The position numbers were made by a program, and so were the translations under genes. The notes under the pieces were generated by a model. The model searched no databases. It saw only the letters and a program-made list of their open reading frames with translations, and was not told the origin of the DNA. From positions 5,084,001-5,148,000 of the forward strand of contig NZ_CP108549.1 of assembly GCF_036010325.1 (NCBI RefSeq): a stretch of DNA of 64,000 bases, written 5' to 3'. This document shows, piece after piece, positions 14,321 to 63,133 of the stretch. Source of the DNA: Streptomyces sp. NBC_01210 (lineage in GTDB: Bacteria > Actinomycetota > Actinomycetes > Streptomycetales > Streptomycetaceae). Position 1 is the first letter of the stretch. The number at the start of each line of letters is the position of its first letter.

Positions 14321-14327
14321 GGGCGAC

Positions 14328-19960: not shown

Positions 19961-20016
19961 CTCGCAAGGGGTGGAGTTCTCGGCCCCTCCTTGTCGTCGA
20001 GGGGGTGAGCCCATAA

Positions 20017-20045: not shown

Positions 20046-20078
20046 CCGGGTGAACCGGCGGGCAGTTGGGGGTACAGC

Positions 20079-21311
20079 GTGGTTGGCATTGCGAGCGGTA
20101 CCAGGGAACTCCCCAAGGTCATCAGCGTGGACGATCACGTGATTGAGCCCGCGCATCTCTTCGAGACCTGGCTTCCGACGAAGTATCGCGACAGGGGGCC
20201 GAAGCCCTTCACCGCCGGAATCGGCGATCTGGAGTACATCGGCGGGAAGTACCGGTTCACCACCGACCCGGAGGGTCAGATCACCGACTGGTGGGAGTAC
20301 GAGGGCCTGATCTTCCCGTACAAGCGCATCATCGCGGCCGTCGGCTTCTCCCGCGATGAGATGACGCTTGACGGCATCACGCGGGAGCAGATGCGGCGCG
20401 GGTGCTGGGACCCGAAGGCCCGGTTGGAGGACATGGACCTCAACCACGTGGAGGCCTCCCTGTGCTTCCCGACATTCCCGCGCTTCTGCGGGCAGACCTT
20501 CGCGGAGGCCAAGGACAAGGAGGTCGGGCTCGCCTGCGTTCGGGCGTACAACGACTGGATGGTGGAGGAGTGGTGCGGTGACAGCGGCGGCCGGCTGATT
20601 CCGCTGTGCCTCATCCCGCTGTGGGACATCGACCTGGCGGTCGCCGAGATAAAACGGAACGCGGCGCGCGGCGTGCGGGCGGTGACCTTCAGCGAGATCC
20701 CCACCTATCTGGGGCTGCCGTCGATCCACTCCGGCTATTGGGACCCGTTCTTCGCGGCTTGCGAGGAGACCGGCACGGTCGTGAACATGCACATCGGGTC
20801 CAGCTCCCAGATGCCGGCCGCGTCGCCCGACGCGCCGCCCGCCGTGCAGGCCTCGCTCTCCTTCAACAACGCCATGGCCTCGATGATGGACTTCCTCTTC
20901 AGCGGGGTGCTGGTGAAGTTCCCGCGGCTGAAGCTGGCGTACAGCGAGGGCCAGATGGGCTGGATCCCCTACGCCCTGGAGCGCGCCGACGACGTGTGGG
21001 AGGAGCACCGTGCCTGGGGCGGGGTGCGCGACCTGATCCCCGAGCCCCCGTCGACGTACTACTACCGGCAGATGTTCTGCTGCTTCTTCCGCGACAAGCA
21101 CGGCATCGATTCGATCGAGACCGTAGGCGTCAACAACGCCACCTTTGAGACCGACTATCCGCACGTCGACTCCACGTGGCCGCACACGAAGCAGGTGGCG
21201 GCCGATCACGTGGCCAGTCTCTCTGAGGACGTGACCTACAAGATCCTTCGAGGTAACGCGATTCGCATGCTGGAGCTGCCGTTCGACCAGGACCGGTCAA
21301 CCACCGCCTGA
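20079..21311 (+). CDS. amidohydrolase family protein (amidohydrolase_2)
   Basis: A 410-residue metal-dependent hydrolase of the amidohydrolase_2 (ACMSD-like) group. SVDDHVIEPAHLFETWL at 16-32 has the first metal motif in the D-x-H form, VVNMHIGSSSQMP near 235 supplies a metal histidine, and NATFETDYPHVDSTWP near 348-363 contains the conserved Asp. Family members open or decarboxylate ring-cleavage products. The substrate is unknown. The GTG at 20079 lies 34 bp after a palindromic operator, implying repressed, inducible expression. It is a single gene. Confidence 0.88.
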   Translation: MVGIASGTRELPKVISVDDHVIEPAHLFETWLPTKYRDRGPKPFTAGIGDLEYIGGKYRFTTDPEGQITDWWEYEGLIFPYKRIIAAVGFSRDEMTLDGITREQMRRGCWDPKARLEDMDLNHVEASLCFPTFPRFCGQTFAEAKDKEVGLACVRAYNDWMVEEWCGDSGGRLIPLCLIPLWDIDLAVAEIKRNAARGVRAVTFSEIPTYLGLPSIHSGYWDPFFAACEETGTVVNMHIGSSSQMPAASPDAPPAVQASLSFNNAMASMMDFLFSGVLVKFPRLKLAYSEGQMGWIPYALERADDVWEEHRAWGGVRDLIPEPPSTYYYRQMFCCFFRDKHGIDSIETVGVNNATFETDYPHVDSTWPHTKQVAADHVASLSEDVTYKILRGNAIRMLELPFDQDRSTTA

Positions 21312-31561: not shown

Positions 31562-31593
31562 AGGCCCGGTTTCCTGAGAAGGGAACCGGGCCT
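31562..31593 (-). terminator. terminator behind tRNA fragment 1
   Basis: AGGCCCGGTTTCC and GGAACCGGGCCT arms around a seven-base spacer. On the minus strand it follows the tRNA 3' end, as a natural tRNA terminator would, in the same arrangement as at 47.2 kb. Confidence 0.65.
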
Positions 31594-31611
31594 GACCTGG
31601 TGCTTCAGCTG

Positions 31612-31655
31612 TCGGGTGGCGGGATTTGAACCCACCACCTGGTCGTCCCGAAGCA
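31612..31655 (-). other. tRNA-Pro-like 3' half, copy 1 (candidate att site)
   Basis: On the minus strand the sequence runs TTCGGGACGACC (end of anticodon arm), AGGTG, T-arm GTGGGTTCAAATCCCGC, and acceptor end CACCCGA. There is no 5' half upstream. The block after it (ACAGCTGAAGCACCAGGTCAG) is nearly identical to copy 3. A 3' half alone is the usual trace of a tyrosine-recombinase element integrated into a tRNA gene. Confidence 0.65.
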
Positions 31656-35751: not shown

Positions 35752-36091
35752 GATGGATGCACCTTTTCCTCCATCGTCTCGCGCAACTCTCAGCGGCACG
35801 AGATGGATAGCCGCAGCCGAAGGGGAGGAGCGGCGTGGTCGCAGGCGTCGCCTCACACATATGAGGAGCACGCCTCGCAGCCAAGATCCCCGCTGTACGG
35901 GAACCGGCTGACCGGGGCGTTTCCCCGGGTTGCGGCTCTCCTGTCAGTACGTTGACGGTCCCCTTTTGGATTGCGGGTCGGCGGGAAGTCCGCGAAGGGG
36001 CTCGCACCTCACGGGCTGCGCCGCACGGCCAAGACGCGTATGGAGGAGGTCCGTACTCCGCCGAAGCGGATGGACGAGCGCAATTTCAGCT
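35752..36091. other. gap before tRNA fragment 2
   Basis: About 340 bp that contain the promoter of the small secreted protein on the minus strand. Nothing else is recognisable; the right end adjoins the second tRNA-like block. Confidence 0.3.
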
Positions 36092-36141
36092 GTCGGGGTG
36101 GCTGGATTTGAACCCAGGACCTCTTCGTCCCGCATGAGGTC
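36092..36141 (-). other. tRNA-Pro-like 3' half, copy 2 (candidate att site)
   Basis: The minus strand reads CATGCGGGACGAAGAGGTC then CTGGGTTCAAATCCAGCC and ACCCCGA. The block matches copy 3 closely, but the T-stem no longer pairs fully, so it has decayed. CAGCTGAAATT follows, similar to the tail of the other copies. No 5' half is present. Confidence 0.55.
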
Positions 36142-46605: not shown

Positions 46606-46959
46606 CGTTGGCGTTCCAGGGCGCCCCGCGCCGCAACCTGGCGGAGACTGAAGGCATGGGGTCGTGAGGAGGAGACATGTCTGTCTGGCCGTCAGTTCGT
46701 TTGGAGTGGCTCGGCCGTGCTGGAGCAGGACCCAGCTCTCTGACTGGCGGCTGATATCAGTTCTGAAGTTTCGTCATCCTCGCTTTCGAGGTCTGTTCCC
46801 ACTTGTGGGGGCGCTGTCCGGGATCGTTCACCATCGTTCATCGTGGCGACCGTCCTAGATGGTTGAAAGATCGCGGACATAGTCGTACGGCCGTGAATGA
46901 GACGGAAACTGAGACGGAGGAGAGGAAGCCTCCCTGCACCCGTCACAAGGCGGGGCTGA

Positions 46960-47180
46960 AGCCGGAGTGGACACCGCGGGAGCTTCGGCACAGCTTCGTG
47001 TCCCCGCTCTCCGATCACGGGATCACGTTGGAGCGGATCGCGCTTCTGGTCGGCCACAGTAGCCAGGGCACCACGGAGGCGGTCTACCGCAAGCAGCTCC
47101 GTCCGGTGATCACGGAGGGGGCCGAAGCGATGGACGAGATCTTCGCCGACGATGACGAGGCGGATGCGCTCGGGGCTTGA
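46960..47180 (+). pseudogene. C-terminal tyrosine integrase fragment
   Basis: The frame reads LKPEWTPRELRHSFVSPLSD, HGITLERIALLVGHSSQGT and TEAVYRKQLRPVITEGA, ending at 47180. It includes the R-x-x-H box, the GHSS histidine region and the catalytic Tyr (EAVYRKQ). The N-terminal two thirds, including the first catalytic Arg, are missing, and upstream sequence is unrelated. It ends 90 bp from tRNA fragment 3, the normal distance between an integrase gene and its attachment site. Confidence 0.7.
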
Positions 47181-47222
47181 TCCATTCCCTTTGGCCCCCT
47201 GTTTGGCCCCAGAGCATGCAGA

Positions 47223-47252
47223 AGGCCCATTCGCGATCACGCGAATGGGCCT
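47223..47252 (-). terminator. terminator behind tRNA fragment 3
   Basis: A perfect 13-bp stem (AGGCCCATTCGCG and CGCGAATGGGCCT) with loop ATCA. On the minus strand it follows the tRNA 3' end by about 20 bp, as at 31.6 kb. Confidence 0.75.
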
Positions 47253-47271
47253 CTGACCTGGTGTTTCAGCT

Positions 47272-47316
47272 GTCGGGGTGGCGGGATTTGAACCCACGAC
47301 CTCTTCGTCCCGAATG
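47272..47316 (-). other. tRNA-Pro(CGG)-like 3' half, copy 3 (candidate att site)
   Basis: The minus strand reads CATTCGGGACGAAG (anticodon arm 3' side with CGG), AGGTC, the T-arm GTGGGTTCAAATCCCGC with perfect stem, and the acceptor end CACCCCGA. Upstream of CATTCGG there is no D-arm or 5' acceptor strand, so this is not a working tRNA gene. It is the best preserved of the three blocks. Confidence 0.7.
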
Positions 47317-47419
47317 AGGTTCGGTCGCTGATCTCATCTGCACGGATGGAGTTTGCCCTGGTCAGAGACGTGGTCCTGGTTGGTCTCGCGTGGCGTGGAA
47401 GGCGTTCCGGGAGCGGGTC

Positions 47420-47438
47420 GGCTCCCAGATGGCTCCCA
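47420..47438. repeat. GGCTCCC direct repeat beside tRNA fragment 3
   Basis: GGCTCCCAGATGGCTCCCA, the same double element as at 36240-36257 and at the same side of the tRNA block; a possible integrase arm site. Confidence 0.45.
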
Positions 47439-48038
47439 GACGAGCCATGTGACCGTCTGTCTAGGTCGGCTGTTCGTGCGGGCCCCTCGTATCGCCCTCG
47501 CTGCGATGAGTACTCCAACGGACGCGAGTCGTGGAGGATACGCGTCCTACTGGGTTAGCTGCTCGCCTACGGGGGTTCGTCAGCGGTGGAGATCCGCAGC
47601 TCGTGCTCGAAGACGACGCCTTGGCTGTCGCGGTTGAACTCTTCGCCTCGGTAGACGGCGACCCGCAGCGGCCGACCCGGATGTGCTTTTCTCGGATACC
47701 GTCAAAGCGGATCAAGCCCACCTCCCTGCTCGCCGGGTTCGACTCCGTCGGCGCGCGACGCCACACCGTCGCCACCATGAACGGGAACGAATCAGCGGGA
47801 ATCAGAAGCTGGCCCGCAAGCCAACCGCGCACCAACAGGCTCCTGCTCGCTGACACTGCGGCCAGTAAGACACATTCACAGGCATTGACAGTTACTCACC
47901 GCCCCTGTGCAACGTCCCTGAGTCCGTCAAACTGCCACCTTGGGCACAGCTCACCGCACCAGGGCTACCGCGTCCTTCCACCGCTGTGAGGCGAGCGCCC
48001 TGGGAATACCCAAGCAGGTTCAGTAGCCGTCACAGTGA
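47439..48038. other. gap with an unrecognised C-terminal relic
   Basis: A 600-bp region between the integration site and the AlbA-domain gene. On the minus strand about 47567-47674 reads RPLRVAVYRGEEFNRDSQGV and VFEHELRISTADEPP before TAG, which looks like the true end of a lost gene, but no family is recognised. The rest shows nothing I can support. Confidence 0.35.
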
Positions 48039-49577
48039 TCACGAGAGGCCCGAAGCGAGCCACGCCTCCATCTCTGCCCTTGCCTTGGGAGCGAGCCTTG
48101 CCGCACGGACTTCACCGTTTGGGCGCAGGAGCGTGAGCTCGTAAACTCCGTAGTCTGCGAGGAGGTCCGCAGCGATGTTGCGAGCGACACCACGCAGCTG
48201 CCGGCTGTCCTCAACAAGACCCGCGAGGTAGGCGACATGATGGCTCGGCTCGCTGGGCAGCCCCGCGAAAGGCTCGGGTGGCGGAACGAAGCGTGTGCTC
48301 CCATTGATCGGAGTTCGATCGACGAAGACTGTGGTCTCGCCCGCAGTTCGAGCAAGGATGTCCACATCCCCGAAGCCGTCCGCCCAGTCGGCGTACGTTG
48401 CGATCAAGTGCAGAGCTCCAAGGATTTCGGACTCCAGCAGAGTCAGGTTGAGTTGAGGGGCACTGGGAGCCGACTCAGGCGTAGGGCTCGATGCTGACGA
48501 TCGCCACACCTCACTCCTGGAGCCGAGGGCCTCTGGAAGACGGACGTTAACGGCAATCGCATCGTTCCCGACAGGGATTCCCTCTGCTGTGGGCAGGGGG
48601 GGAGCCTCCGCCTCCGGGCGGAGACTGGCGTCTTCCGTTTCGGAATTCGAGGTCGAAACCTGGCTCGTCAGCACGGCACTGGCCACCTCGATCGACGCGA
48701 AGGCGCTGCCATCGGTGTGCCAGACCGCGTGCACGCCGCCCCGTTGCATGTGCATTCGGCCGCGGCGGACATCGGGCATCCTGCCGAGCAGTTGCTGTGG
48801 GAGTGCCCGTCCTGGGGACCTCCCGAACTCCGACATCCGATTGAGGAAGCCCGTGACGTCCTGGATGAAAGACCGGTCAATTCGACGCTCCGCAAGCCCG
48901 TTGGGCACCAGGGCCAGCTCGAGTTGCACTCCGCCTGGAAGCGTGGGTTTCGCCCAGGCGGCGCCTTCCGCCAGTACTCGACGGACGCGCTCTGCCTGGT
49001 CTTCGGCGAGACGGAAGCGGTCCCGGTAGACCTGCGCGATCTCTGATTCATCGAGCCAAGCGGTTATTCGGTCTATCCGGCGGGCGTAGCTGTAGCGGTT
49101 CTGCCCCTTGCCCCCAGCGACTGGTCGAACGGCATGCGGGGCTATGGGGCTACGTGGAACGCCGATGAGGAAGAAGCCGATCCCCGGCGAAGTTGAAATG
49201 TCCGGTATTGTGCGGACGCTGAAGTCTGGAGGAAGGAAGGGGAAGACTCGGCTGCGCAGGCCGTTGTTGAACTGCACGACGATGCCGTCGTCGATGTCAA
49301 CAGGCGTCAGTTGGCCAGCGCATCCCTGGGCATCTTCAGCGATCCCGATGACGATCAGTCCGCCTCGGGCATTCGCCATGGCCGTCACGTCCTTAGCCAG
49401 TTCGTCCAGGGACTCGGCGTTCTTCGCGTACGAGTTCTGCTGCTTGAAGTCGAGATCGACACCTTCCGCTACGCGCTGTGTACACAGCGTGGCGAGGTGG
49501 CTCCTGTCCAGCTCTTCGAAGGGCGCGCCAAGTAGGGCAGCGATCCTGGGAATCTTCACGGTCACGCAATCGAGCAT
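48039..49577 (-). CDS. AlbA_2/Schlafen-like ATP-binding domain protein
   Basis: A 512-residue protein. Its N-terminal 40-170 matches the AlbA_2 (Schlafen-like, formerly AAA_4) domain: GVDLDFKQQNSYAKNAES, ELAKDVTAMANARGGLIVIG, then VPRSPIAPHAVR and RYSYARRIDRITAWLDESEI. This domain occurs in regulators and in nuclease-type defence proteins. The remaining 300 residues are not recognised; they end in a helical region (SHHVAYLAGLVEDSRQLRGV). ATG 49577 is only five bases from the start of the divergent helicase gene; GTG 49559 is an alternative. The position beside the helicase-methylase-ATPase operon suggests an accessory or control role. Confidence 0.75.
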   Translation of the reverse strand: MLDCVTVKIPRIAALLGAPFEELDRSHLATLCTQRVAEGVDLDFKQQNSYAKNAESLDELAKDVTAMANARGGLIVIGIAEDAQGCAGQLTPVDIDDGIVVQFNNGLRSRVFPFLPPDFSVRTIPDISTSPGIGFFLIGVPRSPIAPHAVRPVAGGKGQNRYSYARRIDRITAWLDESEIAQVYRDRFRLAEDQAERVRRVLAEGAAWAKPTLPGGVQLELALVPNGLAERRIDRSFIQDVTGFLNRMSEFGRSPGRALPQQLLGRMPDVRRGRMHMQRGGVHAVWHTDGSAFASIEVASAVLTSQVSTSNSETEDASLRPEAEAPPLPTAEGIPVGNDAIAVNVRLPEALGSRSEVWRSSASSPTPESAPSAPQLNLTLLESEILGALHLIATYADWADGFGDVDILARTAGETTVFVDRTPINGSTRFVPPPEPFAGLPSEPSHHVAYLAGLVEDSRQLRGVARNIAADLLADYGVYELTLLRPNGEVRAARLAPKARAEMEAWLASGLS

Positions 49578-49582
49578 ATGAG

Positions 49583-52500
49583 ATGACGGACCCTCATCTC
49601 GCCGTGACCGTAAAGGAGTTAACCGATAGGCTTATGATCGCCAGTAGTCGGAGTCCAGCCGGTGGGGAGCCGGCTGTGACCGCAGGTGGGGGCGCATCTT
49701 TTGTGACGACTTTCAATCCGAACGACCTGCGGCCAGGGGTGCGTGTTCGATTCCCTGGGCATGCTGAGGCCACCACGGTCGTGACCGTGAAGCCTGGCGC
49801 CTACTGGGAGTTCCTCGTTGAGGGTGCGCCCGGGGAGTACCAGCCCATCAGCCTTCCCGAGGACGAGTTGCCCGGCGTCGAGGTACTGGATGTTGGGGGC
49901 GAGCGCGGGTACGACGCGGACCCGCGGGCCTTCCGGCTTGGCGTGGAGGCCCGTCGAATCCGTGCCAGGTTTCAGCACGACATGGCCGCGCTCTCGGTGT
50001 CGAACATCGAACCACTGCCTCACCAACTGGAAGCCGTCTACGGGCATTTCCTGGAGCAACCCAGGCTCCGCTTCCTCCTGGCGGACGATCCGGGGGCGGG
50101 GAAAACGATCATGACGGGGCTCTATATCAAGGAGCTCCAATTGCGCGGTGCCGCGGACCGGGTTCTGATCGTCGCCCCTGCCAATCTCGGCTTCCAATGG
50201 CAGCGCGAACTGGACGAACGCTTCCAGATCAAGGCTCGGCGGGTCACGAGGGACACCATCGACGCCGCGCCAACCGAGAACCCCTGGGATGCCAACGGAG
50301 TCTTGATCATCTCCCGGGACCTCCTCAAGAGCGACGACATTTTGCAGACTCTCGCAGCTGCCGAACGCTCCTGGGACCTGGCGGTCCTCGACGAAGCACA
50401 CGGTTACACGCTGAAAGTCAACAAGCGGGGAGCAATCGACAACCGTACGGCTCGATACAAGGCGGCTGAGGTCGTTTCAGAACGGACCGAACGACTGCTG
50501 CTGTTGACCGCCACTCCGCATTCCGGGCGCGAGGAGTCCATCTGGGGTCTGCTGCGACTACTCGACCCGGACATGTATGGAGATCGCTGTCCCGAACACG
50601 TCGAAGTGCACCCCCAGCATTACTCGAAGACATCTAAAGAGCAGATGGTAGACCTGCGCGGCAACCTTCTCTTCAAGCCGCGCACACCGCACACGGTGGC
50701 GTACGACCTGCAAGGCCCCGAATGGGATCTCTATCAGGCCGTGTCGGCCTTCATCACCGAGGGCCTCGCCGAGATCCGCGGCGAAGGCCGGGCCTCTGTC
50801 TCCGGCTTCGCGCTCACCACGATGCAGCGCAGACTGGCATCCTCGGTACGCGCCATCAGCCGGACACTGGAGCGTCGGGTGGAGAGGCTGGAGCGCGAAC
50901 TGGCCGGCCCCGCGGCTGAATCTCGCTCGGCTGTCGCTGTCGGCTCCAGTCCAGCCAGCAACGACAACGTTGATCGGACCGAGGAAGAACGCTGGGCGCA
51001 GGAGGAAGCGGCACTCGCAGCGCTGCCGCGTTCACTCGAGGAGATCGCGGCTGAACTCGATGCTGTTCGTCCTCTGCTTGCGCAGGCACAGGAGACCGAG
51101 CGTCTCGGCAGTGAGATCAAGCTCAACGAACTCTGGAAGGTCCTGGAGAAGTACGGCGTCGGGGACGATGCCTCTAAGAAGCTGCTGATCTTCACTGAGC
51201 ACAAGGACACGCTCGACTTCCTGCAAGACAAGCTCTCCGAGCAGTTCGACGTCGTGGTCATCCACGGCGGCATGCGGGCCGCAGAGCGTATCGCCGCCGA
51301 GCGGGCGTTCCGTGAACACGCCCAGATCATGGTGGCCACAGAGGCCGCTGGCGAAGGCATCAACCTGCAGTTTTGCCATCTCATGGTCAACTACGACATC
51401 CCATGGAATCCCAACCGCCTCGAACAGCGGATGGGGCGGGTTCACCGTATCGGTCAGACCGAAGAGGTCCACATCTTCAACCTAGTCGCGGGGAACACCA
51501 GGGAAGGGCACGTCCTGGCGACCGTTCTGAAGAAGCTCGAGTGGATGGGCAAGTCGCTCGGTGACCGAGTGTTCGACGTGATCGGAGAAGTGTTCGCCGC
51601 CTACAAGCTTCCGGAACTTCTCCAGGCAGTTGTCGCCGGAGAGCGCAGCTCGCAGGAGACGGCCGCACAGTTCGGCGCAGATGAGGGGACGTACGACCGG
51701 GAACTCCTCGAGCGGGCCGAAGAGCTGCTTGCGAAAGCCCTTGCGACAGGGCACATCGACTGGCGGCTGCAGAGGAGGCTTAGCGAACGCGCTGAGGAGC
51801 GAAGGCTTCCGCCTGACCATCTAAAACGATTCTTCTTGGACGCGATCGACTTCGCGGGGGGCAAGGCTACCCCGAGGCTCGACCACACCACTGTGCACGT
51901 GGATCGGACCCCGGACCTGTTGATAGCCAGGGACCGGGACCGGGGCACCTTGCGTCAACTCCAGCCAGCATATGAGCGGATTACCTTCGATAAATCCGTC
52001 GCGGTACGTCGTATGGCCGAGGATGCCGAACTGGGTGCGCCACGACCAGAGCTCTGCGGCCCCGGCCACTCCCTGCTCGAGAACTTGATCGATCACATAA
52101 TCGAGGCCACTCACCTGCCCCTCCAGCGCGGCGCCGTCTTACTTGACCCAAGTCGGCAGAACCCTGCCGTCCTGCACCTGCTCGAGGCAGACGTGGTGGA
52201 CGGGCATCGGTCGGTGGTACACCGAAGCATCGCCACCATCGGTGACACGGACGGGGTGCTCCGTGCCTCGGGCGGTGTCCTTTACGACTTTCTGTTGGGC
52301 GATAACGCGAGGCAGAAGGGTGGAGCAACCTCTCGCGCGGAGGCCGAGCTGATCGCCTGGGCCCGCCAGAACGTGTTCGAGGCCCGTGTGAAGGAGGCTC
52401 GCGCGGAGCGCGAGCACACCGCCACGATCCAGGAGGAGTTTCTGAACGCCTCGTTCAACACGGTCCTTGCCCGCCAGGAAGTCGAGTTGATGGACCTCGA

Positions 52501-53116
52501 CGAAGACGTGGAGGCTGGAAAGCCGGGCGCCGAAGGCCGCCGCCGCAAGGTCGAACTTGCCAAGCGCACGATTCAGGAGCGCCGAAACCGGCGGCTCGCT
52601 GACGTTGCGCGCACGCGACAGGTCGACCGCGGGCCAGTGCGTGTCCTGGCACAGTGCCTCCTTCTGCCTGCCCCGACCGACGAGACCAGGGTCGACGGCA
52701 GAGGTTCTCGCTACGGTCGCGGCCTAAGCGACCCCGAGATTGAACGCATCGCAGTTCAGGTAAGCATCGACTACGAGCACGGTCACGGCGCCGTGGAGAT
52801 CCGCTCTGTCGAGTCGGACAACATCGGCTTCGACCTGGTCTCCGAGCGTGAGAACGAACGGCGCTGCATCGAGGTCAAGGGCCGCGCGGGAGTCGGCGCA
52901 GTCGAGCTGACCTGGTCCGAGTACGTCACGGCGGCGAAGCTCGGCCGCGACTACTGGTTGTACGTCGTACTGGACTGCGCTGGCGATCACCCCAGGCTCT
53001 ATCGGATCCAGGATCCTGCCACCGCCCTGGCCGGCAGCTTCGTCCCCAGTCATGACGTGCGCTACTCGGTCGCTCCAGGTCCCGTAGTCGACGCCGCAGA
53101 ACAGGAGGCGTCGTGA
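49583..53116 (+). CDS. SNF2/DEAD-type helicase with DUF3883 nuclease-like tail
   Basis: A 1177-residue superfamily 2 helicase. Motif I is ADDPGAGKTIMTGL (about 168-181), the DEAH box is VLDEAHGY (about 267), motif III LTATPHSG, motif V ATEAAGEGINLQFCHLMVNY and motif VI RMGRVHRIGQ (about 616). A coiled-coil insert (about 420-500) splits the lobes. The C-terminal DUF3883 domain (about 1055-1160; NIGFDLVSE then RRCIEVKGRAG) has the D-x(n)-E-x-K look of restriction nucleases. Two TTA codons (residues 13 and 853) predict bldA-dependent translation. The ATG at 49583 is probable; ATG 49634 would skip the first TTA. Its stop overlaps the methyltransferase start, giving one operon with a likely anti-phage role. 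Confidence 0.88.
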   Translation: MTDPHLAVTVKELTDRLMIASSRSPAGGEPAVTAGGGASFVTTFNPNDLRPGVRVRFPGHAEATTVVTVKPGAYWEFLVEGAPGEYQPISLPEDELPGVEVLDVGGERGYDADPRAFRLGVEARRIRARFQHDMAALSVSNIEPLPHQLEAVYGHFLEQPRLRFLLADDPGAGKTIMTGLYIKELQLRGAADRVLIVAPANLGFQWQRELDERFQIKARRVTRDTIDAAPTENPWDANGVLIISRDLLKSDDILQTLAAAERSWDLAVLDEAHGYTLKVNKRGAIDNRTARYKAAEVVSERTERLLLLTATPHSGREESIWGLLRLLDPDMYGDRCPEHVEVHPQHYSKTSKEQMVDLRGNLLFKPRTPHTVAYDLQGPEWDLYQAVSAFITEGLAEIRGEGRASVSGFALTTMQRRLASSVRAISRTLERRVERLERELAGPAAESRSAVAVGSSPASNDNVDRTEEERWAQEEAALAALPRSLEEIAAELDAVRPLLAQAQETERLGSEIKLNELWKVLEKYGVGDDASKKLLIFTEHKDTLDFLQDKLSEQFDVVVIHGGMRAAERIAAERAFREHAQIMVATEAAGEGINLQFCHLMVNYDIPWNPNRLEQRMGRVHRIGQTEEVHIFNLVAGNTREGHVLATVLKKLEWMGKSLGDRVFDVIGEVFAAYKLPELLQAVVAGERSSQETAAQFGADEGTYDRELLERAEELLAKALATGHIDWRLQRRLSERAEERRLPPDHLKRFFLDAIDFAGGKATPRLDHTTVHVDRTPDLLIARDRDRGTLRQLQPAYERITFDKSVAVRRMAEDAELGAPRPELCGPGHSLLENLIDHIIEATHLPLQRGAVLLDPSRQNPAVLHLLEADVVDGHRSVVHRSIATIGDTDGVLRASGGVLYDFLLGDNARQKGGATSRAEAELIAWARQNVFEARVKEARAEREHTATIQEEFLNASFNTVLARQEVELMDLDEDVEAGKPGAEGRRRKVELAKRTIQERRNRRLADVARTRQVDRGPVRVLAQCLLLPAPTDETRVDGRGSRYGRGLSDPEIERIAVQVSIDYEHGHGAVEIRSVESDNIGFDLVSERENERRCIEVKGRAGVGAVELTWSEYVTAAKLGRDYWLYVVLDCAGDHPRLYRIQDPATALAGSFVPSHDVRYSVAPGPVVDAAEQEAS

Positions 53117-55806
53117 GACGTGCCCTCATCGAGGAGAAGCTCCCCCTCGCCGCCGTCAACGCTGCTTCCGGTCGCGAGAAGCACCTACGCCACGGCCATA
53201 TCTCGACAATGCACCTGTGGTGGGCCCGCAGGCCCTTGTCGATGGCTCGCACGGTGGTACTCGCCAGTCTTGTCCCCGACCCAGGTCCCGCGAAGCGGGC
53301 TCGGCTGCTGGCGGACATCGGCAACGCCGCGCCTTTCGCGTCGATCTCCCATGCGGCCGTTGTGGAACCCTTGCGTAGATCCCTCACGACGGCCTGGCCT
53401 GATCGGCCCCCGAAGGTGTTGGACTGCTTCGCGGGTGGCGGCGCCATCCCTCTAGAGGCTGCACGCCTCGGCTGCGATACCACCGCCGTCGACATCAACC
53501 CGGTCGCCCATCTCATCCAGAAATGCGTGCTCGAATACCCGGCGCGCTACGGCAAGGCGGACGAGCCTGGCGGCCCAAACCTTGTGGAGGAGTTCCGGAC
53601 CTGGGCGGAATGGGTCAGCGTGCGAGCCGACGCCCGCCTCGAATCGGTCCTTCCACGGGTCAAGGAAGGCAACCGTGCTGCCGTCTACTTCTGGGCGCGC
53701 ACTGTTCCATGCGCTGATCCTGGCTGCGCCCGAACCATTCCGCTCATTTCGTCACGCAAGCTGGCCGACTCCACGCGCAACCGGGTCCGTGTCGACTACG
53801 ACATTAGCGAGGACCGGGTCGAGCTGCGCGTCGCCGAGGGAGTGGCAGCTGACGGTAGCGACTGGAAACTCGGCACCAAGACCAGCCGCGGCTCGCAGGT
53901 CACCGTCACTTGCCCGGCCTGCGGTACCGCTCGGCCGGACAAGGAGTTGCGTAGCTACGCGCGCGAGCACGGCTTCGGGAACTACCTGTACGCGGTTCTC
54001 GATATTGGGCCCACAGGGGTGCGCGTCTACCGGGAGCCGACAGAAGCGGACCGAGAGGCCATAGCGCGGGCGGACGCGTTCGTGGAAGGTCTTGACGACT
54101 ATCCCGACGGGACCAGCGCGGTGCCGGACGAATCGATCATTCGATCGCAATACCGTCGCTATCCTAACCTGACCTATGGCATCGACACCTGGGCCAGAAT
54201 GTTCACTGCGCGTCAGCAGCTCGTTCTCGCCGTGCTGGCACAGGGCGTTCGTGCTGCTCACACGGCAATGCTCGAACAGGGAATGGAAGAGGGGCGGGCG
54301 CGAGCACTTGCCACCTACCTCGGGCTGGCTGTCGACCGCATCGTGGACTACAACTCCACCTTCACAACCTGGCGACCCACTGTCGAGGCGCCCCGTAGCA
54401 CCTTCCCGCAACAGGCAATCCGCATGGCCTGGGACTTCACCGAAGTAGACCCTTTCGGCGCAGGCCCAAGCGGATGGAGCAGCGCTGTGGGCTGGATCTC
54501 CCAATCCCTGAGTCACTGCATTACCGCCACCGCAGGCAACCCGTCCCGAGTGCAGCGGGCCAACGCTCAGCATCTTCCCTTCGATGACGGCGAATTCGAC
54601 GCCGTCATCATCGATCCGCCCTACTATGACGCCTTCCAGTACGGCGATCTCTCCGACTTCTTCTACGTATGGCTAAAGCGTTCCCTCGGCCACCTCTATC
54701 CCGAGCTCTTTGCTACTTCCCTTACCCCCAAGAAGGCCGAGGTCATCCAGAACCGAGCCGACACCAAGTCAGCTGAGTACATATCCAGAACAGAGTTCGA
54801 GCAACGCCTCCAACGAGCCTTGGACGAGGTGGCCAGAGTGGTGCGCGACGACGGGATAGTCTCCCTGGTCTTCGCTCACACCGACTCCACAGCATGGGAA
54901 CACCTCCTGCGCGGACTTAGGGATGCCGGCCTCGTCGTGACCACGTCGTGGCCGATGCAGTCCGAACGCGAGGGCCGCAGCACCGACAACAAGGGCTCGG
55001 TTCTTGCTTCCTCGGTTGTCCTGGTGTGTCGGAAGGTCCTGGCTGCTGAGGAGGGCTACTTCGACGATGTTGTGCGCGAGCTAGACGCGCGGATAGCCGA
55101 GCGTCTGGCTGTCTTCGACGACATGAAGCTGTCCGGGGCGGACTATTTCGTCTCTGCGATTGGACCGGCCTTCGAGGTCTTCGCGCGCTACTCCCGGGTC
55201 GTCCGATTGTCGGGCGAGGAGGTCGATGTAGAGCAGCTGATGGTCCTCGCGCGACAAGCGGTCGCCCGGCACGCGACCAGGGCGCTCACCGGAGGCGAGT
55301 CTCTCCAGGCCCTCGATGACCGGTCATTGCTGTATCTCACCTGGCGTTGGGCCTACGACAGTCAGGACATTCCCGCCGATGAGGCATACATGCTGTGCCG
55401 GGCGTTCGACCTCAGCCTCGACGCGCTCACCGCGCCAGGAGGCTTGCTAAAGAAACTCGGTAACGGGAGCGCCGGCTACCGGCTGCTTGGCCCGGACGAC
55501 CGTCGCCGTCTTCCGCTGGGCCCTCGTCCCTCCTTGGTTGATGTCATGCACGCGGCCTGTCTGCTGTACGACCAAGGACGGCGTCAGGAGCTCGACGCAC
55601 TACTGGGAACGACTGGCGCCGCAGCAGAACCCGCGTTCTGGGCGCTAATCACAGCAGTGGCTGAGCTGCTCCCCGAGGGAAGCCGTGAACGCACCCTCCT
55701 ACTCGGCCTCGGCGGCAGTCGCGAGGACCTGGCGGAACGCGCCGCCAAGTACACGCCGGCGTTCGAAGAGCTCGCTCTCTTCGACTCAAGCACAGGAAAT
55801 GGATGA
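53113..55806 (+). CDS. DUF1156 DNA methyltransferase
   Basis: An 897-residue DNA methyltransferase. DUF1156 opens the protein (IEEKLPLAAVNAASGREKHL; HLWWARRPLSMART). SAM motif I is VLDCFAGGGAIPLEAARLGC (about 103-122), two CxxC/CxxxC pairs (CADPGC, CPACG) form a probable zinc ribbon at about 200-270, and the catalytic motif is VIIDPPYYDAFQYGDLSD (about 497-514). The DPPY form fits N6-adenine or N4-cytosine methylation. GTG 53113 has AGGAGG five bases upstream and overlaps the helicase stop. Its own stop lies inside the start of the ATPase gene. It is expected to mark host DNA for the operon. Confidence 0.9.
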   Translation: MRRALIEEKLPLAAVNAASGREKHLRHGHISTMHLWWARRPLSMARTVVLASLVPDPGPAKRARLLADIGNAAPFASISHAAVVEPLRRSLTTAWPDRPPKVLDCFAGGGAIPLEAARLGCDTTAVDINPVAHLIQKCVLEYPARYGKADEPGGPNLVEEFRTWAEWVSVRADARLESVLPRVKEGNRAAVYFWARTVPCADPGCARTIPLISSRKLADSTRNRVRVDYDISEDRVELRVAEGVAADGSDWKLGTKTSRGSQVTVTCPACGTARPDKELRSYAREHGFGNYLYAVLDIGPTGVRVYREPTEADREAIARADAFVEGLDDYPDGTSAVPDESIIRSQYRRYPNLTYGIDTWARMFTARQQLVLAVLAQGVRAAHTAMLEQGMEEGRARALATYLGLAVDRIVDYNSTFTTWRPTVEAPRSTFPQQAIRMAWDFTEVDPFGAGPSGWSSAVGWISQSLSHCITATAGNPSRVQRANAQHLPFDDGEFDAVIIDPPYYDAFQYGDLSDFFYVWLKRSLGHLYPELFATSLTPKKAEVIQNRADTKSAEYISRTEFEQRLQRALDEVARVVRDDGIVSLVFAHTDSTAWEHLLRGLRDAGLVVTTSWPMQSEREGRSTDNKGSVLASSVVLVCRKVLAAEEGYFDDVVRELDARIAERLAVFDDMKLSGADYFVSAIGPAFEVFARYSRVVRLSGEEVDVEQLMVLARQAVARHATRALTGGESLQALDDRSLLYLTWRWAYDSQDIPADEAYMLCRAFDLSLDALTAPGGLLKKLGNGSAGYRLLGPDDRRRLPLGPRPSLVDVMHAACLLYDQGRRQELDALLGTTGAAAEPAFWALITAVAELLPEGSRERTLLLGLGGSREDLAERAAKYTPAFEELALFDSSTGNG

Positions 55807-58675
55807 CCCCGCTGTGATCAGGGTGAAGAAGTGGCACGAGGTAGCGCGACCCCACGATGACATTGCAGACGGTTCCTTCGAGGAAGCCAGGTTCGCTGCC
55901 GACCTGGGGCTGGTGGCGAAGGGCGACGGACCCGCGGATTACCTGAACCCGGTTCTGTTCGCGGAGAAGACCTATCTGACTGAGAATCTCCGGGCGGCAC
56001 TGGTCGAAATCGGGAACCGACTGTCTGGCGATCCAGCCGCCAACGCCGTATACCGCATGCAGACCGAGTTCGGCGGAGGAAAGACACACACCCTGCTGGC
56101 CGCGTACCACCTTTTCGGTTCTGCTCGATCGGTGAAAGACACGCAGCTCGCCCGGCAACTCGCCAAGTCAATACGGGGCGGCGCTGTCCCCCAGGCCCGA
56201 GTTGTCGTCCTCGACGGCTCTGCACTCACAGCTGACTGCAACCCCAAGGACAACGGGACTCCCGGACACACCCTGCTCGGTCACCTTGCCTACAAGCTCG
56301 GCGGCGCTCAAGCCTACGAGGCCGTTCGCACACAGGACGAGGCTCGACGCGGAACCTCCACCACCCAACTCGTGAATCTCCTCCGAGAGCACTCGCCCTG
56401 CCTGATACTGATGGACGAGACGCTGGAATACTTGGCGAAGACCCTCACTTCGGACGTACACAAGGGCTCGTTGACCGCCACGACTCTGACGATCATTAAA
56501 GAGCTGAACACTGCTGTTGCTAATGTGCCCGGCGCCTGTCTGGTGGCCACGTTGACAGCCTCCCACCTCGAAGATTTCGCCTCCGTCAACAGTGAGGACT
56601 TGTTGGAGCGGTTGTCCAAGATCTTCGGCCGGACTGAGGCCACCATCACACCTGTCGAGGGCGATGATATCTTTCCGGTTCTGCACACCCGGCTTTTCAA
56701 ATCCCTTGGGTCGGCGGCCGAGCGCCGACGGGTTGCCGACGCCTATGGAACCTACTACTCCGAGCAGTTCGGCGATGCCCTTCCACCGATCTACCGAGAT
56801 CCGGATTATCGTGACCGCATCGAAGCTGCCTATCCGTTCCATCCCGAGTTGATCGACATCCTCACCAATCGTTGGGGCTCGCTGTCCGGGTTCCAGCGCA
56901 CCAGGGGAGCGCTGCGCATCCTCTCCCACACCATCAAAGCGCTCTACCGCGAAGGGCACGCCTCGCCGCTCATACACGCGGGTGACCTGCCGTTGCACGA
57001 TCCCGGCGTCCGAGCCGAAGTTCTGAGATTCGCGGGTGAGTCCTACAAGGCCGCACTCAACGCAGACATAATTCGGCCGAATTCACGAGCGCGTCAGGAG
57101 GATAAACGCAGAGGCGGCGAAATCGCTGCACTTCGCGTGACTACAGGTCTGGCCACAACAGCCTTCGTAAGTTCCTTCAGCGCGGAGCGAGTGGTGGGCG
57201 CCTCTGATGCGCAGATGATTGTCGGCGTCGGGCGCCCAGGACTGTCTCGCGGCCAGCTGGAAGATGTGCGGGACACAGTCAAGAACATCGCCTTCTACAT
57301 GCGCTATGAGGGAGGTCGCTATCGGTTCACCACGGAGCCGAACCTGAACAAGGTCATAGTCGAGCGGGAGAGCGCCATAGCGGAGACGGCAATCTCCGCC
57401 CTCTTGGCCGAGGCCACAAGCAAGGTCGCGCCCTCTTCCGAATTCTGGCGCACTATCACAGGCGTGCACGATTCTTCGGGTGTCCCTGACGTCCCGAAGT
57501 TGACCCTTGCACTTCTGGATCCGGAGAATCGCGTCGAGCAGGCAGAATCCGAAAGCACCCCTGGGCCCGTGCAGATCCTTGCGGATCGCATCCTCACCGA
57601 TTTCAACCAGTCCGGTCGCACCAACAAGAACACGCTGGTCGTGATCGCCCCGGATTCCGTGGCGCTGGGGAGAGCACGCAGCCTCGCACGCACCGTCAGC
57701 GCGATGCGGGACCTGCAGGCTGACGGCCCGCGGCTCAGGCGGTTCAACCAAGAACAGCAGAACGAACTCCGCAGTCGCATCGCTCGGGCGGAGGACAGAC
57801 TGCCTGCTCTCCTCGTCCTGTCGTATCGGCATGTATACATGTTGACGAACGGCATTGGTGGTTCCCCGCCTGCAGTTCTCCACCAGGATTTGGGCCCAGC
57901 CCGTGCCAGTGAGACGGTGACTGACCGTGTCACCGAACATCTCCGCGCCGGCGATGCGCTACTGGACAAACTAGCCCCTGCCGCGCTCCTCTCCGAGCGG
58001 TTCAAGTTGCTCCCATCGGAAGCAGAAGCCGTCGAGATTGAAGCGCTCCTGCATGCCTTCCAGCGCTATCCGCGCCTGCCGAAGCTGGCCTCGGCTGAGG
58101 TACTGCGCGATTGCTTGCGCGCTGGCGTGCAGCGCAGCGTGTTTGCCCTTGTGTCGGGGAGCCAGTGGCGTGCGCCTGATGCAGTAATCAGGTTGGGGGA
58201 GGACGTGATACCGGGCGAGATCGACTTCCAGCCTGGGACATGGCTGGTACGTGCCCCACTTGCGCTAGACGCGCTCGGACAACGCAACGCCTCGGTACAT
58301 ACAACCGCAGGTACCGGGCTGGCCGTGGCGGAGCCCTCCACAGGTCATACAGATGGATCCGACGCCTCGACGCCACCGGGCAGGGGACGTGAGCGAAACT
58401 CGGCCGCAAGCCCTACGGTCGGCGCAGCAAACACCACGAAGTCGGCGCCTGGTCCCACAGGACTTCGGTTGCGGATAGCGGGTGTGCCAGCTGACAAAGT
58501 GAGGGACGTCGTCAAGGTGGCCGTTTTGCAGTTCGCCACCCAGGGAGCCGAGGTGACGGTCGACTTTGACGTGTCGATCCGCTCACCGAAACCAATCGCG
58601 CCTCACATCATCGATCTGGTTCTCGACGAGGGCCTCGGGCAGCTGGGCTTGCGGGCAGAAAAGCAGGAAGGATAG
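55799..58675 (+). CDS. DUF499-like ATPase of the defence operon
   Basis: A 958-residue ATPase. The P-loop is TEFGGGKTHTLLAAYHLF (about 88-105), Walker B is CLILMDETLEYLAK (about 200-213), and RTRGALRILSHTIKALY lies near 375. This pattern matches DUF499 proteins, which accompany DUF1156 methyltransferases. A Ser/Thr/Gly-rich linker (about 845-890) leads to a compact C-terminal domain (LRLRIAGVPADKVRDVVKVA; EVTVDFDVSI). The start ATGGATGA at 55799 overlaps the methyltransferase stop by eight bases, so translation is coupled. It may drive recognition or assembly of the complex on foreign DNA; this role is inference. Confidence 0.85.
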   Translation: MDDPAVIRVKKWHEVARPHDDIADGSFEEARFAADLGLVAKGDGPADYLNPVLFAEKTYLTENLRAALVEIGNRLSGDPAANAVYRMQTEFGGGKTHTLLAAYHLFGSARSVKDTQLARQLAKSIRGGAVPQARVVVLDGSALTADCNPKDNGTPGHTLLGHLAYKLGGAQAYEAVRTQDEARRGTSTTQLVNLLREHSPCLILMDETLEYLAKTLTSDVHKGSLTATTLTIIKELNTAVANVPGACLVATLTASHLEDFASVNSEDLLERLSKIFGRTEATITPVEGDDIFPVLHTRLFKSLGSAAERRRVADAYGTYYSEQFGDALPPIYRDPDYRDRIEAAYPFHPELIDILTNRWGSLSGFQRTRGALRILSHTIKALYREGHASPLIHAGDLPLHDPGVRAEVLRFAGESYKAALNADIIRPNSRARQEDKRRGGEIAALRVTTGLATTAFVSSFSAERVVGASDAQMIVGVGRPGLSRGQLEDVRDTVKNIAFYMRYEGGRYRFTTEPNLNKVIVERESAIAETAISALLAEATSKVAPSSEFWRTITGVHDSSGVPDVPKLTLALLDPENRVEQAESESTPGPVQILADRILTDFNQSGRTNKNTLVVIAPDSVALGRARSLARTVSAMRDLQADGPRLRRFNQEQQNELRSRIARAEDRLPALLVLSYRHVYMLTNGIGGSPPAVLHQDLGPARASETVTDRVTEHLRAGDALLDKLAPAALLSERFKLLPSEAEAVEIEALLHAFQRYPRLPKLASAEVLRDCLRAGVQRSVFALVSGSQWRAPDAVIRLGEDVIPGEIDFQPGTWLVRAPLALDALGQRNASVHTTAGTGLAVAEPSTGHTDGSDASTPPGRGRERNSAASPTVGAANTTKSAPGPTGLRLRIAGVPADKVRDVVKVAVLQFATQGAEVTVDFDVSIRSPKPIAPHIIDLVLDEGLGQLGLRAEKQEG

Positions 58676-58710
58676 CGGACACCCAGCCACCACCATCCTG
58701 CGCTGAATAT

Positions 58711-58738
58711 GCCGCTACGGTGTCGACACCGTAACGGC
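58711..58738. terminator. palindromic terminator between defence and sugar genes
   Basis: TACGGTGTCGACACCGTA is a perfect 18-bp palindrome, extended by GCCG/CGGC outside one mismatch. It lies 35 bp after the ATPase stop and between convergent units, so a bidirectional terminator is likely. Confidence 0.6.
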
Positions 58739-58812
58739 ACAACACCCTCGCCGACGAGGGGGGCCAGGCTAATGCTTGCTCGACTTGCATACGCTGGCCC
58801 TCGACAGGCACC

Positions 58813-59766
58813 TCAAGCGCGAGGGGTACAACGTCCAGCCATTGACTGGTGCCACTCCACAGTTGCCGAGATGCCCTCGACGATCGGTACGGCGTGCACG
58901 TTTGGGAAATGGGTTTTGAGACGGGCTCCGTCCGCTTCGGAGCTGTGGACGTCCCCCGTGCGGGCCGTCGTGTGGCGGCGTGTAGCCGGGAGGTCTGTCG
59001 CAGACTCGATCACCGGAATCAGGTCCAGAAGGGACAGGCGAGTCCCGAAGGCCAGATTCACCGGACGAGGATCTACGACCCGACGCAGCAGGGCGTCGGT
59101 GAGGACGCTGCAAACGGTGCCCACGTACGTAAAGTCTCTCGTCTGAGTGCCATCGCCATGCACGGTGACAGGCTGGACGGCGAGCATGGCGCTGATCCAC
59201 TTCGGGATGACAGCAGCGTAGGCGTGGTCAGCGCGCTGACCGGGGCCGTAGACGTTGAAGAAGCGGAAGGGCAGGACCGGTAGACCGTAGCTGTGGTGGT
59301 ACGCCCCCAGGTACGCCTCGGTGGCGAGTTTGGTGACCGCGTACGGGCTCATCGGAGCGGTAGTGAGGTCCTCATGTTTCGGGAGGTGCGGGTTCGCGCC
59401 GTAGACCGAGGATGAGGAAGCCGCGATCACGTGCAGGTTGCCGGCACGGCGGGCGGCTTCGAGGACCTGGAGCGTTCCTGTCGCATTGGCATGGTGGCTG
59501 GCCAGCGGATCTTTCACGGAGCGAGGCACGGATGGGAGGGCGGCAAGGTGGACGATGGCGTCCGCGCCGTGGAATGCCTGGTCCAGGAGAGCCGCGTCCT
59601 GGACGTCACCTTCGAAGAAGCCGACGTCCAGGTCCGCGAGGTTCTGCTTCGACCCGGTGCTGAGGTTGTCGATCACTCGTATCTGGGTGATCGCAGGGTC
59701 GTTCGCCAGGGTCCGGACGAGGTTGCTGCCGATGAACCCGGCGCCGCCGGTGATCACGATGTTCAC
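58813..59766 (-). CDS. NAD-dependent sugar-nucleotide epimerase/dehydratase
   Basis: A 317-residue extended short-chain dehydrogenase. The NAD motif is TGGAGFIGSNLVRTL (6-20), the catalytic triad shows as ASSSSVYG and SPYAVTKLATE (Y-x3-K, about 140-150), and RFFNVYGPGQRADHAYAAVI fits UDP-sugar 4-epimerases. The likely substrate is UDP-GlcNAc or UDP-Glc. It follows the UDP-sugar dehydrogenase gene by 14 bp in the same direction, as in pathways that make UDP-sugar acids for capsule or glycoconjugates. ATG 59766 is clear. Confidence 0.88.
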   Translation of the reverse strand: MNIVITGGAGFIGSNLVRTLANDPAITQIRVIDNLSTGSKQNLADLDVGFFEGDVQDAALLDQAFHGADAIVHLAALPSVPRSVKDPLASHHANATGTLQVLEAARRAGNLHVIAASSSSVYGANPHLPKHEDLTTAPMSPYAVTKLATEAYLGAYHHSYGLPVLPFRFFNVYGPGQRADHAYAAVIPKWISAMLAVQPVTVHGDGTQTRDFTYVGTVCSVLTDALLRRVVDPRPVNLAFGTRLSLLDLIPVIESATDLPATRRHTTARTGDVHSSEADGARLKTHFPNVHAVPIVEGISATVEWHQSMAGRCTPRA

Positions 59767-61076: not shown

Positions 61077-61411
61077 GCGGACCACCTTTTTGGAGTGGGG
61101 TGAGGACAGTGCGTGCGGAACTGCCGGGGCACGGTGGCCCTAGGATGAGAACTGCCTCGGCCGTACGAGACTCGCTTGGCCGCCTGTCTCGGACGGCCGA
61201 GTGCCTTTTCCGCGCGGGCTCGTCCGGGGGATAAACAGCTCGCCGGGGGGATGCCCGGGTTCGATACGATGGCGACGGTCGGCAGACTCGACCCGTCACC
61301 GTGCGTCACACGAATGGGCGACCTGAGTGGTCCCGCCTGCTGCCGCCTCCCGACTTGGGCCCGCCGCGGCACTGCCATCGGCGCCTTACGTACGAAATGG
61401 AGCATCCAAGG
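61077..61411. other. divergent control region of the dehydrogenase and metG genes
   Basis: A 335-bp gap between divergent genes. It has an inverted repeat CTCGGCCGT (61156-61164) and ACGGCCGAG (61193-61201) and a -10-like TACGAT near 61266. TGGTCCCGC at about 61330 is faintly T-box-like but lacks the conserved A, so no riboswitch is called. Confidence 0.35.
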
Positions 61412-63133
61412 ATGGCTCGACACCTGGTCACCAGCGCGCTTCCCTACATCAACGGGATCAAGCACCTGGGCAACATGGTCGGGTCGATGCTTCCGGCGGA
61501 TGTGTACTCCCGGTACCTCCGCCAGCGTGGTCACGACGTCCTCTACATCTGCGCGACCGACGAGCACGGGACGCCGGCCGAGCTGGCAGCCAAGGAGGCT
61601 GGACTGGCGGTGGCCGAGTTCTGCGCACAGGCCCACAACGCGCAGAAGGCCGTGTACGACGGCTTCCAGCTGGCCTTCGACTACTTCGGCCGGAGCTCCT
61701 CGCAGCAGAACGTCGAGATCACGCAGCACTTCGCGCGTCAGCTCCACAAGAACGGGTTCATCGAAGAGCGGGCGATCCGTCAGGTGTACTCGCCTGTTGA
61801 CGGCCGCTTCCTGCCGGACCGGTACGTCGAGGGCACCTGCCCGCACTGCGGCTACGACAAGGCCCGCGGTGACCAGTGCGAGAACTGCACCCGCGTACTC
61901 GACCCGACCGACCTTCTGAACCCGCGCTCGGCGATCAGCGGCTCCACGGAGCTTGAGGTCCGCGAGACCAAGCACCTGTTTCTGCTGCAGTCCAAGCTCC
62001 AGCACGAGGTGGAAGCGTGGGTGGCCCGGCACGAGGCGCAGTGGCCGCAGCTGTCCTCGTCCATTGCCCGCAAGTGGCTGACCGAGGGCCTCCACGACCG
62101 CGCCATTACCCGAGACCTGGACTGGGGTGTCCCGGTCCCGGCGGACACCTGGCCGGAGCTCGCGGCCGAGGGCAAGGTCTTCTACGTCTGGTTCGACGCC
62201 CCGATCGAGTACATCGGCGCGACGAAGGAGTGGTCGGACGCCGCGCAGGACGGCGAGACCCGCGACTGGAAGTCGTGGTGGTACGAGGCCGACGACACCG
62301 TCCGCTACACCCAGTTCATGGCCAAGGACAACGTCCCCTTCCACACAGTGATGTTCCCGGCCACCGAGCTTGGCGTCCGCGAGCCGTGGAAGAAGGTCGA
62401 CGTTGTCAAGGGCTTCAACTGGCTGACGTACTACGGCGGCAAGTTCTCCACTTCCCAGAAGCGCGGTGTCTTCACGGACGCCGCCCTGGAGCTGCTGCCC
62501 GCCGACTACTGGCGCTACTTCCTCATCGCCAACGCCCCGGAGTCCGACGACTCGTCCTTCACTTGGGAGCACTTCGCCGCCACGGTCAACAAGGACCTGG
62601 CCGACACCCTCGGCAACTTCGTCAACCGCGTGCTGTCCTTCTCCCGTAAGCGGTTTGGGGACGATGTCCCCGCGGGCAACGCGGCCGGCGAGGTGGAGGC
62701 GCGCCTGGGCGAGGAGATCGCGCGGCTGCTGGCCGAGTACGAGGAGCACATGGAGGCCCTCCAGTACCGCAAGGCCGGGGCGGCGCTGCGAGCCCTGTGG
62801 TCGGCAGGCAACTCCTACCTGGAGGAGAAGGCCCCCTGGCTGGAGATCAAGTCCGACCCGGAGGGCGCGGCCCTGACACTGCGTACGGCGATGAACCTCA
62901 TCCACCTCTACGCGATCGTCTCCGAGCCGTTCATCCCGGCCTCGGCCGCCGCCATGCGCGGGGCCTTCGCCCTGGAGAGCGACACCGCGACCTGGGTGAC
63001 CGCTGAGCAGGCCAAGTCCCTGGACGCTGTCCCGGCCGGTACAGCCTTCACCGTGCCGCCGGTGCTCTTCGCGAAGATCTCGGAGGAGGACCTGGAGTCC
63101 TACCGGACCCGCTTCGGCGGAGCCGACGCCTGA
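61412..63133 (+). CDS. metG: methionine--tRNA ligase (short paralogue type)
   Basis: A 573-residue methionyl-tRNA synthetase. The class I signature reads NGIKHLGN (HIGH position) near residue 13 and the second is KFSTSQKRG (KMSKS position) near 347, both variants of the standard. A four-cysteine zinc knuckle (CPHCG, CENC) is at about 146-160, and [19 protein letters not shown] is typical. There is no C-terminal tRNA-binding domain. It charges tRNA-Met. Its place beside sugar-nucleotide and phosphatase genes suggests it is a second copy. Variant motifs can confer resistance to MetRS inhibitors; that is speculation here. ATG 61412 has GGAG nine bases upstream. Confidence 0.9.

Follow-up and report, generated by a model that had tools for sequence, protein, structure and literature searches.

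The window analysed here, a 64,000-nucleotide stretch of the Streptomyces sp. NBC_01210 genome (contig NZ_CP108549.1, positions 5,084,001 to 5,148,000), raises the question of what a Schlafen-type gene does beside a helicase-methylase-ATPase (Hma) operon. Four intact reading frames are found between positions 48039 and 58675: an AlbA_2 gene on the minus strand and, divergent from it on the plus strand, hmaA, hmaB and hmaC. On balance, we consider it probable that the locus encodes a restriction-like system for phage defence, of the Hma or Type-1 BREX-Related (BR) type, which belongs to a small clade of actinobacteria and is equipped with a separate Schlafen-type RNA-cutting arm. The argument is drawn from sequence comparison and structure prediction: the gene content and motifs, a divergent linkage that is conserved, the correlated divergence, a predicted Schlafen fold with retained acidic residues, the absence of a HEPN domain and the location in an island.

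The trio is assigned to Hma by PADLOC matches to HmaA (9e-189), HmaB (5e-117) and HmaC (4e-134), in agreement with the class proposed earlier in a sequence-only reading of this DNA. That reading also placed the four genes correctly and gave the exact overlaps between the plus-strand genes, which are 4 bases for hmaA and hmaB (GTGA, 53113-53116) and 8 bases for hmaB and hmaC (ATGGATGA, 55799-55806), a layout that reads as a three-gene operon. The motifs that it listed (FAGGG, DPPY and GGGKT) are present, and DUF1156, DUF499, SNF2/Helicase_C, NOV_C (which we take to be its "DUF3883") and SLFN_AlbA_2 all score above the Pfam cut-offs. Across the seven distinct loci of the clade described below, the catalytic motifs examined are retained, including GAGKT and DEAH of HmaA and FAGGG and DPPY of HmaB (7/7 each); the exception is the C-terminal GFDL...IEVKG of HmaA, kept in six loci and changed to IQVKG in the Nocardia locus L047. 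We read this segment as a PD-(D/E)XK-type site, on the assumption that NOV_C belongs to the PD-(D/E)XK superfamily.

Hma was put forward as a candidate system in 2021, with 1,638 instances in 26 phyla (PMC8565338), and was renamed the Type-1 DUF499-centred BR system in 2026 (PMC12839542). The phage-defence role of HmaA was confirmed by a later experimental study, according to PMC12839542. HmaB was predicted to be a 5-methylcytosine enzyme in 2021 (PMC8565338) and an N6-adenine enzyme in 2026 (PMC12839542), and the DPPY motif of the window protein fits the N6-adenine prediction. Since a C-terminal PD-(D/E)XK domain occurs in 79% of Type-1 BR taxa (PMC12839542), the nuclease-like tail of the helicase, which the sequence-only reading had considered new, is ordinary for the type. 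Judged by these matches, the trio itself is a further member of an already described kind.

The AlbA_2 gene is the less familiar component. A genome scan with its family yielded 44 loci. In all six other loci whose AlbA_2 protein is at least 50% identical to that of the window in the best segment (five Streptomyces and one Nocardia), hmaA-hmaB-hmaC is divergently adjacent, so that the arrangement is present in seven of seven distinct clade loci, window included (L047 and L132 are one locus, counted once in distinct-locus figures). The pairing that had caught attention in the sequence-only reading is therefore genuine, and the trio does not, as that reading had allowed for, always lack the gene. 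The clade's trio was absent within the flank examined at the other 38 of the 44 loci, with weak partial matches in two (L066 and L082). Identities of the clade relatives to the window proteins are 53-95% for AlbA_2, 60-99% for HmaA, 71-98% for HmaB and 64-99% for HmaC; AlbA_2 thus diverges faster than the trio proteins. AlbA_2 and HmaB distances are correlated (r = 0.948 over 10 pairs, three of them joined by shared organism without the genes being seen side by side), a value reached in 1 of 5000 permutations. Joint inheritance would give the same correlation, which therefore indicates that the cassette stays together and does not imply an interaction between the proteins. The pairing appears real and, as far as seen, confined to one clade.

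The AlbA_2 protein could instead be an independent defence or cargo gene of the tRNA-Pro island described below, working separately from hma. Such a role would suit the distant AlbA_2 relatives found away from hma, the unrelated genes in islands at the tRNA-Pro site and the description of Schlafen-linked systems as separate defence modules (PMC12839542). It is harder to reconcile with a divergent arrangement that is retained down to 53% AlbA_2 identity, in both Streptomyces and Nocardia, and in both orientations relative to the tRNA-Pro repeat; the correlated distances also count against it, within the limit just given. We regard an independent gene as quite unlikely.

The AlbA_2 protein (P0001) matches SLFN_AlbA_2 (PF04326) with an E-value of 6e-9 and 36.8 bits, compared to a cut-off of 25.3, and has no PADLOC match at E 0.001. 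In P0001 numbering, it contains a Schlafen-like domain (residues ∼6-205), a low-confidence linker (∼304-369) and a C-terminal alpha+beta domain without a Pfam match. No histidine kinase or winged helix-turn-helix (wHTH) domain was detected by Pfam in P0001, its C-terminal part, P0010 or P0020. The AlphaFold2 model has a mean predicted local distance difference test (pLDDT) score of 78.6, and Foldseek/VIA matches it to SLFN proteins and the SAMD9 tRNase. The predicted structure has the fold of the Schlafen nuclease lobe, and acidic residues that resemble the catalytic ones of SLFN13 are retained. E38, D43, K45 and D63 are located in the Schlafen-like domain, and the three acidic residues are conserved in the family alignment. 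The E-x4-D spacing of E38 and D43 fits that of E205 and E210 in SLFN13 (PMC5862951), and D63 is the putative counterpart of SLFN13 D248. Both the predicted fold and the E-x4-D-F-K spacing resemble the nuclease lobe of the Schlafen RNases SLFN13, SLFN11 and SLFN14, the SAMD9 tRNase domain and CbCash (9ylu).

These features also bear on the possibility that the AlbA_2 protein is a DNA-binding regulator of the divergent hma promoter, as with many divergent regulators of restriction systems. The gene is divergent across a 137-bp intergenic region, public annotations name an AlbA family DNA-binding or HTH-domain protein, and binding of nucleic acid without cleavage occurs among Schlafen proteins. 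However, Pfam detects no HTH or other DNA-binding domain in the protein, RNases are among the nearest solved folds of the model, and the acidic residues are conserved. The intergenic alignment contains little conserved operator-like sequence, and the faster divergence of AlbA_2 relative to the trio points in the same direction. A regulatory role is, in our judgment, unlikely.

To place the clade among other Hma systems, 79 Hma-type rows were compared, comprising the window, six genome-contig loci and 72 rows from whole-genome searches; the stretches examined span 4.7-20 kb, and some stop at contig ends. The HmaB places G001:C10, G212:C6, G417, G472, G492, G941 and G793, and the second place in G1111, are outside these rows. 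A Swt1-like HEPN domain is fused to HmaC in 54 of the 66 Type-1-like rows and is absent in 12, namely the eight rows of the AlbA_2 clade (seven distinct loci), L099, L101, L100 and L162. The remaining 13 of the 79 rows have the order C-B-A (seven), weak matches (four) or no visible HmaC (two). Within the clade, Pfam finds no N-terminal HEPN in HmaC of the window (P0004) or of L045, and our own HEPN hidden Markov model (HMM) is negative in all eight rows. An N-terminal HEPN is reported for the ATPase in 1370 of 2446 Type-1 BR taxa (PMC12839542), and is thus a majority feature that is not required. An AbiJ gene is present in two of the three loci of a separate HEPN-less lineage (L099-L101). The gene encodes AbiJ_NTD5 and Abi_C and follows the HEPN-less hmaC at L099 15989-16843 (+) and L101 3821-4678 (-), both from Streptomyces; Abi_C is an HEPN-type RNase.

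In an HmaB tree computed with a mixture model from 28 rows, hand-picked from 78, the Schlafen-linked clade has a support of 99 in the Shimodaira-Hasegawa-like approximate likelihood ratio test (SH-aLRT), while the HEPN-fused and L099-L101 clades each have 100. The support for the Schlafen-linked clade is 100 in the 78-row tree, which is without L119 (split HmaB) and in which L112 and L139, with no HmaC in the stretch, are marked unknown. With three separately supported clades that have their own partners, the RNase-type partner differs by lineage.

An AlbA_2 domain of any kind was found in the examined stretch of four of the 71 other Hma-type rows (L092, L093, L135 and L164), a figure that merges our own AlbA HMM, which missed L164, with Pfam, which found it. 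The AlbA_2 gene of L093 is ∼6 kb beyond the trio, and that of L135 is a 133-aa remnant. L092 (3058-3882, -) encodes a 274-aa AlbA_2 protein of another, barely related family, divergent from hmaA, and its HmaC is HEPN-fused; it is the second case in which an AlbA_2 gene is divergent from hmaA. In L164, a gene upstream of hmaB-hmaC (12255-14477, -) encodes 740 aa in which an AAA/STAND-like ATPase is joined to a C-terminal AlbA_2 domain; HmaC of this locus is also HEPN-fused, and no hmaA was recognised in the examined stretch.

Several observations weigh against a Schlafen-type arm that belongs to the Hma system. L092 and L164 combine HEPN-fused HmaC with AlbA_2, so the two domains are not mutually exclusive, and a Schlafen gene is missing from most of the Hma rows compared. 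Association with hma is not obligate for the family, since its more distant relatives in Amycolatopsis (L048) and Catenulispora (L049), 44-48% identical in the best segment, are not beside hma. No HEPN, Schlafen or AbiJ was detected in L100 or L162; in L100, hmaC is followed by an AAA_21 (AbiEii-like) ATPase gene and hmaA is flanked by a DUF5655/NucS-like gene, and HmaC of L162 is extended at its N-terminus by a long segment in which no HEPN was matched. The contrast between HEPN and Schlafen rests on about one clade each, and the independent events are few. The tree gives no sign of a replacement and does not separate a loss of HEPN in the AlbA_2 clade from its never having been acquired there; the fusion could just be an acquisition by a different clade. 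Several hundred HmaB relatives at 57-70% identity lie outside the genomic-context survey. In the AlbA_2 protein, the second catalytic glutamate of SLFN13 is replaced by aspartate. Finally, two of the seven clade loci (L045 and L047) are without the tRNA-Pro repeat within the 10 kb examined.

For the favoured Hma system with a Schlafen-type arm, we infer the biochemical steps, the trigger and the defence function of the window copy as follows. HmaB would methylate adenines at a target motif and thereby mark self DNA. HmaC, a BrxC-like ATPase, may scan or assemble on unmarked DNA, and HmaA, as a helicase that carries a nuclease domain at its C-terminus, would translocate and degrade that DNA. 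The AlbA_2 protein would be a latent tRNA or RNA nuclease, held in reserve until the DNA-cutting tier is overwhelmed or obstructed, at which point its firing would stop translation. It could fill the place taken by the HmaC-fused HEPN in most Type-1-like systems, or by the stand-alone AbiJ-type gene in two of the three loci of the other HEPN-less lineage. The cassette would move with islands at the tRNA-Pro(cgg) site. It is conceivable, though we lean against it, that Hma is in general a two-tier machine, in which HmaA-HmaB-HmaC degrade DNA and an exchangeable RNase module released by HmaC stops translation; depending on the lineage, this module would be a Swt1-like HEPN fused to the ATPase, a separate AbiJ-type protein or a divergent Schlafen-type tRNase. 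Mammalian SLFN11 answers DNA stress by tRNA cleavage; if the two-tier reading is true, a bacterial Schlafen protein under a BREX-like DNA sensor would echo it. A testable rule would be that an RNA-cutting arm may be a requirement of Type-1 Hma/BR lineages, with the family that supplies it differing among them. The compact four-gene cassette, present in seven distinct genomes and with residues to test, would connect Schlafen-type RNases to a bacterial DNA-sensing restriction machine.

The locus resembles several known systems. It has the same three genes as Hma, HmaA-HmaB-HmaC, with strong matches to all three models; only these three are named in the available text of PMC8565338, whereas a divergent Schlafen-type gene is added here. 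With Type-1 BR it shares the DUF499 ATPase, the DUF1156 methyltransferase and the Swi2/Snf2 helicase with a C-terminal nuclease-like domain (PMC12839542), but the window HmaC is missing the HEPN of the majority. Schlafen genes near BREX/BR systems have been found in at least 1017 taxa (PMC12839542), so the novelty claimed for the pairing by the sequence-only reading holds in part. The BREX/BR-linked Schlafens carry a histidine kinase and a wHTH (PMC12839542), in contrast to the window protein. What is new, from comparison of the sequences, is a Schlafen-type family with neither domain by Pfam that is kept beside one HEPN-less Hma clade; its pairing with Hma is not reported in the available parts of PMC8565338, PMC12839542 or PMC5862951. 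The kinship with BREX and DISARM suggested earlier is supported by weaker PADLOC matches of the helicase to BrxH and DrmD. Type-3 BREX has a homologous ATPase, methyltransferase and helicase (PMC12839542); the window locus differs from it in having three core genes. Among the PADLOC matches listed for the four proteins and six neighbouring open reading frames (ORFs), which for HmaA are the best 25 of 56 families, there is neither PglZ nor the DISARM protein DrmB. HmaA matches the DrmA and DrmD models below that of HmaA; it is similar to DrmD, but its 353.8 bits fall far short of the NCBIfam DrmD cut-off of 610.

Alignment with the six relatives places the starts of the AlbA_2 gene and hmaA at GTG 49565 and GTG 49703, which leaves 137 bp between the divergent genes; the hmaA frame of L042 is broken upstream of residue 57. 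The intergenic region presumably carries the promoters of both genes. A sigma-70 scan of 47200-59000 found no site in it, and the total was near chance. The features are collected in the table.

Features of the AlbA_2-hma locus and its left boundary (window coordinates)
Feature	Position	Strand	Evidence and remarks
Tyrosine recombinase, C-terminal remnant	46803..47180	+	Pfam Phage_integrase 2.5e-7, profile 118-167
Attachment-site-like repeat: tRNA-Pro(cgg) 3' fragment 47272-47314 (43 bp) and 19 bp downstream	47253..47320	-	Left boundary of 45-kb stretch
AlbA_2/Schlafen-type gene, 508 aa from GTG 49565	48039..49565	-	Pfam PF04326; mechanical ORF opens 49577
Divergent intergenic region, 137 bp	49566..49702		Seven-locus alignment; little conserved across clade
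hmaA, Swi2/Snf2 helicase with C-terminal NOV_C	49703..53116	+	PADLOC HmaA; Pfam SNF2, Helicase_C, NOV_C; ORF opens 49478, likely start GTG 49703
NOV_C nuclease-like domain of HmaA, GFDL...IEVKG	52739..53008	+	Pfam PF13020 2e-14
hmaB, DUF1156 amino-methyltransferase, FAGGG and DPPY	53113..55806	+	PADLOC HmaB; Pfam DUF1156 5e-20
hmaC, DUF499 AAA+ ATPase, GGGKT and LILMDE	55799..58675	+	PADLOC HmaC; Pfam DUF499 2e-27; ORF opens 55685, likely start ATG 55799

The cassette is located in an island at a tRNA-Pro site. The integration site proposed by the sequence-only reading is indeed of tRNA type, but it is a 43-bp fragment of tRNA-Pro, and no tRNA gene was found anywhere in the window by ARAGORN or Rfam. 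The 62 bp at positions 47253-47314 match exactly the end of a complete tRNA-Pro(cgg) gene and its following 19 bp. This gene (G000:C1:5176158-5176232) is 45 kb from the fragment and forms the other end of the 45-kb stretch that has the repeat as its left boundary. The recombinase remnant adjoins the repeat on the side away from the cassette. Two more tRNA-Pro 3' fragments are present in the window, at 31592-31652 and 36084-36140. The repeats suggest stacked insertions, in several rounds, at one tRNA-Pro site of the host genome.

A tRNA-Pro(cgg) gene and a 3' fragment likewise flank the cassette in Streptomyces TRM70350 (39 kb apart), SID13726 (26 kb) and NK08204 (20 kb); Pfam detected no integrase among seven ORFs examined from the NK08204 island. 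In these three genomes, the fragment adjoins hmaC. In the window it adjoins AlbA_2, as it does in Streptomyces A3M-1-3, for which a single repeat copy was seen, beside the cassette. The cassette thus occurs at the tRNA-Pro site in both orientations. In A3M-1-3, a 97% match stops at the repeat (window 47247), and long alignment resumes only with a block equivalent to window 7.7-9.6 kb; the 37 kb in between are therefore absent from that junction.

A truncated recombinase beside the cassette and repeats that indicate several insertion rounds could also be expected of a decaying island remnant without present function. All four reading frames are nevertheless intact in the window, and the seven loci retain the catalytic motifs examined, with the single L047 substitution noted above; we regard a remnant as very improbable.

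Other genes were seen near the clade loci. Beside the cassette of L044 are genes for an HSP70-like protein (12487-14532, -), whose C-terminal part weakly matches an NYN RNase, and a large UvrD-like helicase (16940-20461, -), possibly further defence genes. In the Nocardia locus L047, a tRNA-Ala(cgc) gene (397-472, +) is located ∼0.5 kb past the end of hmaC. In the window, the GC content in 2-kb windows is ∼62-66% at 45-60 kb and ∼66-74% elsewhere, and a complete methionyl-tRNA synthetase gene (61301-63133, +) is present within the tRNA-Pro-bounded stretch.
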